From contig NZ_JAAHBQ010000077.1 in NCBI RefSeq assembly GCF_020144665.1, forward strand, positions 213-39,550: a DNA stretch of 39,338 nt, written 5' to 3'. The position numbers were made by a program, and so were the translations under genes. Source of the DNA: Oscillatoria salina IIICB1. Lineage in GTDB: Bacteria; Cyanobacteriota; Cyanobacteriia; Cyanobacteriales; SIO1D9. A model generated the notes under the pieces. It was given only the letters and a program-made list of their open reading frames with translations. It was not told the origin of the DNA and did no database searches. Position 1 is the first letter of the stretch. Each line of letters begins with the position of its first letter. Shown here in pieces: positions 1,809 to 4,343 of the stretch.

Positions 1809-4343
1809 TTACCAACCAACAATAATTTGCCAAAAAGTAGCTGCTAAAACGACGATACCTAAATACTGCGGTAGTAATAATTTAAATGACTGACGGGCAA
1901 TTCTTTGCGTTACCCACATTGAGGTTATTACTCCTGCAATTAAAGTCGTTCCTTGCAAAAAGGCAACCACGGCTGGATGTGCCACTAATACTGGCAAACT
2001 TTCACCATTTAAACCAAAGGTAGCAAAACTAACTGGTAAAATGCGTCCACCTTCGCCTAAACCTAACTTTAAATAATGTGCTAAGTTTGCTGCTAAAACT
2101 AAAGGCAAATATCCGTAAGCTAATTCAAGAAACCTTTTTGGTTTAATTTTGTTAGTTAATTGATAATATCCCTTCATCACCAGATGAACTAGCATCGGGA
2201 AAATTGCAGGTAAACTCAAAGCTGCTATTGCTACTCCAAAATGCGTCCAAAAATTACTTAAATCTAAACTTAAACCAAGTTGAGATTGTATTTCTGGTAA
2301 ACGGTGCAAAAATACTGCATCTAATAACAATAATAACAAGGCTACTTCATAACTGCGCGGTTGATGACTCGTCCATAATTCTATTCCTGGCGGACGTAAA
2401 TTAAACTCAACTGAACGATGGGGACAAGCTTTTAAACAAGTCATGCACAAAACACAATCTCGGTTATCTTGTAATTGGGCAGGATGAGAATATAAAGGAC
2501 AGCCATTGGTTGCCATTCCTTCGCCTTTTTGCGGCCCTCCTTTATAACATTGATAAGTAGTACATTCTGCCGAACAAGTTCCTTGTTGCGCCCGTAATTC
2601 AGTCATCGAAAGTTTAGCGAACATTCCATTCATTCCGCCGATGGGACACAAGTAGCGACACCAAAAACGACGTTCAAAAATTGCGGAAAATATCATTGCC
2701 CCGGCAGTAATTAACAATAGTAAGCAAGCGGAAAGATAAGCTGTATTTTCTAAATCCCACAATTCTTCCCACAATAAAATTAAACTGAATAAGCCGAATA
2801 AAAACCAACCTCCCCATTTTTCTGCGGTTTGCCGAGGCCACTTTTTCAACTGTCGGGGAACCAACCATAAAGAAAGTTTTTGCGTGATTTCGCCGTAAAT
2901 CATAAAGGGACAAATGGCGCACCATAGCCGTCCAACAAAAGGAAAACCAATTAAAACTAGGGGCCACCACCAAGCCCAAAATAAATTCAAGGCGAAGTTT
3001 TTATCTCGTGTTTGGGGACCGAGAAAAAGTAGGGCAACAACGATCGCAAAAGCGGTTAAAGTAAAGCCATAGTTGAGGCGATCGGGCCACCACGGGCTAC
3101 GCAGAAAGTGACGCAAACGAGGATAGTTATTTAAGAGGTTGACGCGGAATTGTTTTTTCTTACTTTGGGAGGGCCAAACTATTTCTTCGGTGAGTTCTTT
3201 TGCGCCTGCTGCTTGGACGATCGCTCTTTGAATTAAGTTTTCTAATTCGCTAAGGTTGTTAGGAAAGTCGTAAGCTTGTAATTGTCTCACGGCTTCTGGT
3301 GTAATCCGAGGTTTTTTGATTCCTTTGGCACGAGAAATTAGACTCAAATAATAAGCCATTTGGTCGGCAATGTCGCTTTTGCGCACTCGCAAGGGCGGAA
3401 CTTTAAGTAATCGTTCGGCGTGGGGATCGATTTCTGGAATCTTTTTCTCAGAAATCATAATAATTCTCGCTTGACTTTCAATAGGTTTAACGTTTTCCCC
3501 AGAACGACTGACTGGTTTGTAAGTCTTAGTTTTGAGTAATTCGGCTATGGGAGAAAGTAATTCTTTGTCTAATTCTTGAATGTTATTTAAGACTAAAGTT
3601 CCTCGATCTAAAGCAGCAATTAAACCAGGTTTTCCGCCGACACGACCGAATAATTCTGCGCCGCTAGCTTGAATTTTACTGCAATCAAGTTTAATTATTG
3701 GTTCGCGTCGATAAGGGGAACCAAAGTGAATTAAGGCGGCGATGTTGTCTTTTCCTAATCCTGGTTCGCCGAAAATTAGCACCGATTGGCGATCGCCGGA
3801 CGCTTGTTTGATTTTTTGGCGTAATCGTACCGCATAGCGACTTTTGCCAACAATTCCCCGTCTGGCTTTGGTGACTAAGTAGGGTCGCAAAATCACCTGA
3901 CGGTCTTGTTCGTAGCTTAATTGAGATGATAATTGAGCTAGTTCTTTGGCTAATTCAGGTGCGAATTTTTGGATGATTTCGGGATATTTTTCACTTAATT
4001 CCTGAAATTTCGCGCCAGGGATTACCCACAACCGACATTCACTGCGGCTGAAGATTGTTCTTTGGACTGGTTGGTTGAAAAGTAGTTCTTGCAGGTGGAT
4101 AATTGCTCCGGGAAGCCAACTAATCGCCCAAGCGTTACTGGTTTGGCTGGTGCGATCGCTCTCTAGCTTTCCTTTTGCTAAAATATACAAATTCTTGACT
4201 GGGGTATCTTCTTTGACGAGAATTTCATCGGCTGAGACGATTTTTTCGGACATGACTTGCGCGATCGCTTCGATAACTTCTTCGCTGAGTACGCTAAATG
4301 CTGTTCTCTCTCGCAGCCAGGTTACTAAATTTGTTAAGCTCAT
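1809..4343 (-). CDS. cNMP-binding / degenerate AAA+ (NtrC-like) / membrane polyferredoxin fusion
   Basis: An 844-residue fusion. Residues 10-135 form a CRP/FNR-type cyclic-nucleotide-binding barrel (VKNLYILAKGKL). Residues 160-380 resemble the AAA+ domain of sigma-54 activators, with Walker A GEPGLGKD at 192-199, PPLRVRKSDI at 316-325 and FPNNLSELENLI at 360-371. From about 425 the protein is NapH/NosR-like: several membrane segments, CxxCP at 475-479, CxxxCP at 562-567, a cysteine group at 590/594/599/615, and a ferredoxin motif C630-x2-C633-x2-C636-x3-C640-P. The GAFTGA loop is missing, Walker B is LVLNNI instead of LxxDE, and the sensor-II Arg position is Ser. No DNA-binding HTH is evident. 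Cyanobacteria lack sigma-54, so I infer a redox-linked membrane sensor or electron-transfer protein rather than an activator. Confidence 0.85.
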   Translation of the reverse strand: MSLTNLVTWLRERTAFSVLSEEVIEAIAQVMSEKIVSADEILVKEDTPVKNLYILAKGKLESDRTSQTSNAWAISWLPGAIIHLQELLFNQPVQRTIFSRSECRLWVIPGAKFQELSEKYPEIIQKFAPELAKELAQLSSQLSYEQDRQVILRPYLVTKARRGIVGKSRYAVRLRQKIKQASGDRQSVLIFGEPGLGKDNIAALIHFGSPYRREPIIKLDCSKIQASGAELFGRVGGKPGLIAALDRGTLVLNNIQELDKELLSPIAELLKTKTYKPVSRSGENVKPIESQARIIMISEKKIPEIDPHAERLLKVPPLRVRKSDIADQMAYYLSLISRAKGIKKPRITPEAVRQLQAYDFPNNLSELENLIQRAIVQAAGAKELTEEIVWPSQSKKKQFRVNLLNNYPRLRHFLRSPWWPDRLNYGFTLTAFAIVVALLFLGPQTRDKNFALNLFWAWWWPLVLIGFPFVGRLWCAICPFMIYGEITQKLSLWLVPRQLKKWPRQTAEKWGGWFLFGLFSLILLWEELWDLENTAYLSACLLLLITAGAMIFSAIFERRFWCRYLCPIGGMNGMFAKLSMTELRAQQGTCSAECTTYQCYKGGPQKGEGMATNGCPLYSHPAQLQDNRDCVLCMTCLKACPHRSVEFNLRPPGIELWTSHQPRSYEVALLLLLLDAVFLHRLPEIQSQLGLSLDLSNFWTHFGVAIAALSLPAIFPMLVHLVMKGYYQLTNKIKPKRFLELAYGYLPLVLAANLAHYLKLGLGEGGRILPVSFATFGLNGESLPVLVAHPAVVAFLQGTTLIAGVITSMWVTQRIARQSFKLLLPQYLGIVVLAATFWQIIVGW

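Follow-up and report, generated by a model that had tools for sequence, protein, structure and literature searches.

What does an AAA+ domain of the sigma-54 activator type do in a bacterium whose genome has no match to sigma-54, and what is it doing at the head of a membrane iron–sulfur protein? The question is raised by a gene of Oscillatoria salina IIICB1 that lies in a 39,338-nucleotide stretch of DNA (the window). Sigma-54 and its activators are absent from 29 cyanobacterial strains (PMC3162934). An initial sequence-only reading of the window had proposed that the AAA+ module of this gene has been reused, perhaps as a nucleotide-gated switch for electron flow or as a scaffold. Our own best explanation, which we hold with roughly even confidence, is that the protein is a NapH-type redox module that retains a non-hydrolysing AAA+ domain as a platform and carries a cyclic-nucleotide-binding-domain-like (CNBD-like) domain as an optional part.

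The gene is a single open reading frame with an ATG start and encodes 844 residues, in which a CNBD-like domain precedes an AAA+ domain of NtrC type and a NapH-like membrane module that contains twelve cysteines (Table 1). Pfam matches each of these domains, a combination which the sequence-only reading had described as a cyclic-nucleotide-type sensor, an NtrC-like AAA+ domain and a NapH/NosR-like membrane domain in one frame. The Pfam model Fer4_5 matches the protein in two stretches (E 4.2e-9), and the NapH/MauN model TIGR02163 matches residues 469-648 (E 8.6e-14, 51.7 bits against a cut-off of 213.05). The AAA+ part resembles NCBIfam models of the NtrC family, and all NCBIfam matches among the best 25 of 30 lie below the curated cut-offs. 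A full-length AlphaFold model built with 75 sequences has a mean pLDDT of 89 and a pTM of 0.64, which makes the placement of the domains uncertain. The alignments for structure modelling held 75 of 159 rows and 71 of 80 picked rows, nine being left out for a shorter list. Between an acetate kinase gene and the gene studied here, positions 1394-1768 of the window hold a 124-residue frame with sub-cut-off Pfam matches only (XRCC4 N-terminal and TDH).

Table 1. Features of the gene, with their positions in the window and the evidence for each.
Feature	Position	Strand	Evidence
Whole gene: CNBD-like domain, dead NtrC-type AAA+ domain and NapH-like membrane Fe-S protein	1809..4343	-	full-length relatives found
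CNBD-like domain, residues 36-119	3987..4238	-	Pfam cNMP_binding E 7.3e-11; fold match
AAA+ core, NtrC type, residues 164-302	3438..3854	-	Pfam Sigma54_activat E 1.5e-15; fold match FleQ
Walker A GEPGLGKDN, residues 192-200	3744..3770	-	family alignment
Loop-1 deletion site removing GAFTGA, about residues 233-240	3624..3647	-	LuxO alignment and motif scans
Walker B GTLVLNN, residues 248-254, NN for acidic pair	3582..3602	-	family alignment
Sensor-I strand RIIMISE, residues 293-299, Glu299 at Asn position	3447..3467	-	family alignment
AAA+ lid, residues 319-387; sensor-II motif 361-367	3183..3389	-	Pfam AAA_lid_14 E 6.9e-11
NapH-like membrane module, residues 416-555, with C475xxC478P	2679..3098	-	Pfam Fer4_5, NCBIfam, model, hydropathy
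Second motif C562xxxC566P, past fourth helix	2643..2660	-	sequence and family alignment
Two predicted [4Fe-4S] sets: C590/594/599/615 and C630/633/636/640	2421..2576	-	family alignment
C-terminal membrane part, residues 656-844	1812..2378	-	four hydropathy peaks; five long helices in model

A search for homologues with the same architecture revealed a conserved cyanobacterial family. With all clades taken together, 209 of the 291 sampled Cyanobacteriia genomes match at E <= 0.001. In 202 of these the E value is 2.4e-33 or lower, and in seven the match is weak and partial; the other 82 have no match, which means that photosynthesis does not depend on the role of this protein. In a phylum-level sample of 146 genomes, those outside the class gave only partial matches of the NapH-like, NtrC-like or CNBD-like kind, and the best 80 of 418 relatives from a scan that covered other phyla all bear cyanobacterial titles. 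Neither among the 146 genomes nor among those 80 relatives did we see a fusion with intact GAFTGA outside Cyanobacteriia. Text searches of the literature returned no paper that we recognised as being about the protein, which is weak evidence given the small share of the matching literature covered. We take Synechocystis slr0593 to be a possible homologue.

A midpoint-rooted FastTree tree was computed from 159 rows, namely the query and 158 relatives, without L081, L088, L123, L125, L126, L135 and L142, which are duplicates or pieces; an earlier set of 155 rows included pieces of broken copies. The main clade (M) comprises 143 rows including the query (support 0.93), and the paralogue clade B and clade S, of eight rows each, sit on long branches under this rooting (support 1.0 each). 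Agreement on the first methionine (134 of 143 M rows) is partly built in, as start codons were chosen by rule. Clade S comes from genomes of 2.4-3.7 Mb and lacks the CNBD; its loci (L132-L134, L137-L141) have a further eroded AAA+ domain and all twelve cysteines intact. Two genomes, G225 and G362, have matches to M as well as to B; in G362 the M match is partial and interrupted by a stop. Copies of 1121 residues in G025 and G040 (L148 1143-4505 and L149 686-4048) have tandem AAA+ domains before the membrane part, both of NtrC type by Pfam in L148 and recognised by translation in the other. A few loci (L125, L126, L135, L142 and L275) are broken into two or more frames and are perhaps pseudogenes or assembly errors.

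By its overall form, the AAA+ domain is a bacterial enhancer-binding protein (bEBP) domain. It scores 57.7 bits against Sigma54_activat (cut-off 20.2), and modelled residues 159-393 match FleQ (6jdi) with a VIA Z of 25.9 and an rmsd of 2.2 over 227 aligned residues, tied with several other bEBP chains; NtrC1 (3m0e) follows with a Z of 24.2 over 225. The protein is nevertheless not a sigma-54 activator, since GAFTGA, the Walker B Asp-Glu pair, a helix-turn-helix (HTH) and an rpoN gene in the host were all looked for and none was found. The Pfam match would mislabel this widespread cyanobacterial protein as an activator. Neither PF00309 nor PF04552 matches in the O. salina genome (completeness 99.99%), so that an rpoN gene, which the sequence-only reading had named as a finding that would refute it, was not found; both models matched in 4 of 14 control genomes. 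Across the 291 genomes of the class, PF04552 gives four fragmentary hits, none of which covers more than 41 of 160 positions; their frames reach 107 residues at the longest, and one hit is just above the cut-off (23.7 against 22.8 bits). PF00158 matches seven places in the O. salina genome, the gene studied here being the best by far (2.4e-16; next 1.6e-7). Because it also matches all 14 control genomes and six other places in the same genome, this model is not specific. The matches at those six over-cut-off places hold no GAFTGA-like letters; one locus has GAFWGA elsewhere.

The losses within the domain extend across the sampled family. GAFTGA-like letters are found neither in the query nor in the 155-row set, the 158 relatives or the 42 clade B copies (41 with an AAA+ domain), as the sequence-only reading had claimed for the query, and the loss takes the form of a loop 1 that is eight residues shorter than in LuxO when the two are aligned. 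The NN pair that it had noted at the Walker B acidic positions recurs throughout the main clade (N253 in 142 and N254 in 141 of 143 rows). In clade S (n=8) the first position is Asp in five and Ser in three, and the second is Gln in three, Gly in three and Cys in two. For clade B we compared 42 copies, one of them (L275) a piece without the AAA+ domain, with 31 M rows: the first position is Asp in 21 of 41, and the second is Asn in 35, Gln in 5 and His in 1. None of the 143 M, 8 S or 41 B rows has the catalytic Walker B Glu, and no examined homologue keeps either this Glu or GAFTGA. At sensor I, all 143 M rows and all 8 S rows have Glu, and 37 of 41 B copies have Pro; the canonical Asn, whose position we assume to correspond to that in PspF, is absent from every row scanned in the three clades.

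One alternative is that the protein regulates transcription through sigma-70-type polymerase, akin to VpsR, Rhodobacter capsulatus NtrC and TyrR. Among PDB sequences, VpsR indeed matches the soluble part best (E 2.3e-18), with LuxO practically level (2.5e-18), and bEBPs that lack GAFTGA and use sigma-70 are documented (PMC3162934 and PMC10274813). However, the Pfam matches to the protein at E up to 1 include no DNA-binding HTH, and the protein is anchored in the membrane by 8-9 predicted helices, which leaves such a regulator very unlikely.

Loss of catalytic motifs, together with the broken copies mentioned above, could also mean that the protein is simply a decaying version of an activator that once worked and was fused by chance. 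Selection argues the opposite. Median dN/dS values are 0.225 for the CNBD, 0.105 for the AAA+ core, 0.082 for the lid, 0.043 for the NapH part and 0.102 for the C-terminal helices, from a simple Nei-Gojobori count over 150 of 1,493 pairs (filtering left 126 to 150 per segment). Mean pairwise identities in the main clade, from 400 random pairs, are 0.48, 0.64, 0.68, 0.84 and 0.63 in the same order, so that constraint is strongest in the NapH part. The AAA+ part, being under purifying selection, is not decaying; judged by its residues it is very likely catalytically dead, and it is maintained nonetheless. With matches in 209 of the 291 genomes, 202 of them strong, and the same replacements in 141-143 of the 143 M rows, we give decay almost no credence: purifying selection and replacements common to the family contradict it. 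The proposal that the AAA+ module was reused in a genome without sigma-54 is supported by these results, the losses being family-wide as sampled and neither an examined homologue with intact motifs nor an rpoN match in the genome having been found.

The residues that would bind nucleotide tell a more mixed story. The Walker A Lys198 is invariant, so nucleotide binding could still matter. The preceding Gly197 is retained in the O. salina copy and in all 41 clade B copies that have the domain; in the main clade Glu occupies this position in 110 of 143 rows (Gly 21, Asp 7, Gln 3, Ser 1), and Glu is found in 8 of 8 S rows. At the sensor-II position the main clade has Lys in 69, Arg in 49, Thr in 17, Ser in 3 and Gln in 3 of 143 rows, clade S has Arg in 8 of 8, and clade B has Ala, Thr, Ser, Val or Gly. 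The Ser that the sequence-only reading saw in place of the sensor-II Arg is thus real in the query (S365) but nearly private, with Ser in 3 rows and Lys or Arg in 118 of 143, and it is ruled out as a family feature. Given the roles of Walker A, Walker B and sensor residues in AAA+ proteins, the family as a whole has very likely lost ATP hydrolysis; most members of clades M and S probably bind nucleotide less well, and binding may survive in clade B and in the query.

It follows that the nucleotide-gated switch of the sequence-only reading, in which ATP would bind without being hydrolysed and so gate the flow of electrons, is doubtful for most members of the family. The invariant Lys, the lid Lys/Arg of most M rows, and the Gly kept in the query, 21 M rows and all B copies with the domain would suit such a gate, but the change from GxGK to GxEK in most of the main clade and all of clade S should hinder phosphate binding, and the sensor-I Asn is lost. 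We consider the gate unlikely.

The CNBD-like domain is the least constant part of the protein. Modelled residues 1-139 match 9la1_D, a chain titled Arabidopsis GORK, with a Z of 17.4 and an rmsd of 2.0 over 138 aligned residues, and the query has both phosphate-cassette residues, E86 and R95. The cassette Arg is kept in 34 of 143 M rows (9 gapped) and 0 of 8 B rows; in the 42 B copies its position holds Thr in 29, Ala in 8 and Ser in 3, with 2 gaps. The domain is missing from 9 of 143 M rows and from clade S. The cyclic-nucleotide-type domain of the sequence-only reading is therefore there as a fold, but in the main clade its cassette Arg is kept by a minority of rows.

The membrane module stands at the other extreme. 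Both Cys motifs and all Fe-S cysteines, which the sequence-only reading had picked out, are invariant in all 159 rows (143 M, 8 B and 8 S), and all twelve cysteines are present in 42 of 42 B copies; the one row with Leu at 615 belongs to the 155-row set with its pieces of broken copies. E666, Y743, E764 and Q797 in the C-terminal membrane part are likewise invariant. As candidate heme ligands in the C-terminal helices we considered several His residues, and rejected them as they are not common to all clades. Hydropathy indicates eight helices, four peaks on either side of the Fe-S region, and the model about nine, with one extra after that region; AlphaFold confidence is low at residues 588-604 and 624-632 of the Fe-S region. 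By the positive-inside rule, the model and the hydropathy profile suggest that the N-terminal domains, the two Cys motifs and the Fe-S sets all face the cytoplasm. Modelled alone, the membrane part reaches a pLDDT of 85.6 and a pTM of 0.86. A PDB fold search with it gave nothing significant (best Foldseek E 0.37, best VIA Z 6.4), which does not establish a new fold but means that quinone binding cannot be argued from a solved structure. Both Fer4_5 matches of the genome lie in this gene, and FMN_bind (PF04205) matches neither the protein nor the genome, which together make a NosR/PceC-like route via FMN unlikely. The missing FMN_bind fits the underrepresentation of flavinylation systems in Cyanobacteria described in PMC8238504. 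Quinol oxidation has a precedent in NapH (PMC8238504 and PMC5928378).

Gene neighbourhoods point to a possible partner in one clade only. Around the main clade no neighbour is widely conserved (84 loci, that of the window among them; no group of neighbours spans more than 21), and the larger groups, judged from representatives, are taken as synteny among close relatives; we therefore name no partner for the gene. NtcA, CRP and Fur-type boxes show no excess over shuffles upstream in 145 non-B (M and S) regions, and in 8 B upstream regions there is one Fur-core match against 0.15 expected.

Among 388 genomes, at least 44 have a B-type match (58-100% identity to a B protein; 42% or less in the others), and from the genomes so listed, G039 and G045 apart, we collected 42 clade B loci (L192-L199 and L242-L275). 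A cysteine synthase gene follows on the same strand within three frames in 27 of these, which span 10 family labels of the sample; in 23 it is the immediate neighbour, at a distance of -7 to +36 bp in 18 of them. The other 15 show no cysteine synthase in the available stretch, and three of the 42 (L256, L262 and L268) end before any downstream frame. When 41 B loci (L242 left out; average locus length 12.0 kb) were compared with 73 M loci at least 12 kb long (average 15.9 kb), a cysteine synthase was nearby in 26 of 41 against 2 of 73 and a rhodanese-like protein in 10 of 41 against 0 of 73. DUF302, SQR-like, CoA-disulfide-reductase-like and DsrE proteins occur at 2-4 B loci each and are not clearly enriched (Fisher p 0.04 to 0.3); as the loci are related by descent, such p-values overstate independence. 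Because of its conserved place before cysteine synthase, the clade B module probably acts in the metabolism of cysteine or reduced sulfur, and this neighbour offers a testable way in. Other surroundings occur as well: at L197 (8475-10858) a B copy without a CNBD has a DUF1636 protein and more frames on the same strand after it in place of cysteine synthase, and downstream of the G225 B copy we recognised a NifH-like protein by eye (L198 11136-12029).

The module might serve to sense rather than to transfer electrons. In that case, the Fe-S part would respond to the redox state of the quinone pool or the cytoplasm, or to reduced sulfur, and signal via the AAA+ and CNBD parts to a partner with little net electron flow. 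N-terminal domains of regulatory type, the optional CNBD and the lack of any enzyme partner that recurs widely beside main-clade genes would all suit a sensor, and NosR/NirI-type proteins were first named as regulators (PMC5928378). Yet it is the redox module and not the signalling part that is most constrained, and neither an output domain nor a conserved partner was seen in our analysis. We regard a sensor as improbable, although far less so than the nucleotide gate.

We thus prefer electron transfer: the protein may function in the manner of NapH-type redox modules, with a bEBP domain put to new use. By analogy with NapH (PMC5928378), the main clade most likely moves electrons between quinone and a cytoplasmic partner. 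In the mechanism we propose, a membrane-embedded NapH-type module with its Fe-S clusters and its CxxCP and CxxxCP motifs facing the cytoplasm would most likely connect the quinone pool with a soluble carrier or enzyme by electron transfer. The AAA+ domain of NtrC type, presumably unable to hydrolyse ATP or to touch sigma-54, would be retained as a platform for oligomerisation or partner binding, and would determine where, with whom or when the redox module works, and the CNBD-like domain would be an optional additional input. A more specific version, which we put forward tentatively and rate only slightly above the sensor, is that the AAA+ domain of a sigma-54 activator was rebuilt to control, without ATP, a quinone/iron-sulfur oxidoreductase of the membrane; cyanobacteria would thereby have an undescribed regulated electron route between the plastoquinone pool and a cytoplasmic carrier in the main clade, or cysteine/reduced-sulfur metabolism in clade B. 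The family looks like a clean case of a transcription-motor AAA+ domain that stayed under selection after losing both its sigma-54 target and its catalytic residues, joined to a membrane redox protein, and may conceal a redox connection with the quinone pool.

Set against known systems, each part of the protein has familiar relatives. The CNBD-like domain shares its fold and Pfam match with the CNBDs of CRP and channels, but differs as a family in that the phosphate-cassette Arg is unconserved. The AAA+ domain has the same fold as those of FleQ and NtrC1, but is without their Walker B acids, GAFTGA and sensor-I Asn. VpsR, R. capsulatus and Caulobacter NtrC and TyrR are DNA-binding regulators with an HTH, whereas the query is a predicted membrane redox protein with no HTH listed, in a genome without a sigma-54 match. 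What it shares with them is an NtrC-type AAA+ domain with a changed or deleted loop 1 and independence of sigma-54 (PMC3162934 and PMC10274813), and the loop-1 deletion of Caulobacter NtrC is similar in size to the eight-residue loss described here (PMC10274813). With NapH, NosR and PceC (RdhC) the query has in common a four-helix module, two Cys motifs (CxxCP and CxxxCP here) and, after them, two Fe-S cysteine sets as described for NapH and NosR (PMC5928378). It differs from NosR and PceC in being without their covalent-FMN domain and, while possessing the Fer4_5 module with two Cys motifs of NapH, misses the TIGR02163 cut-off by the margin given above. To all three it adds N-terminal regulatory domains, predicted to be cytoplasmic, and four or five additional C-terminal helices.
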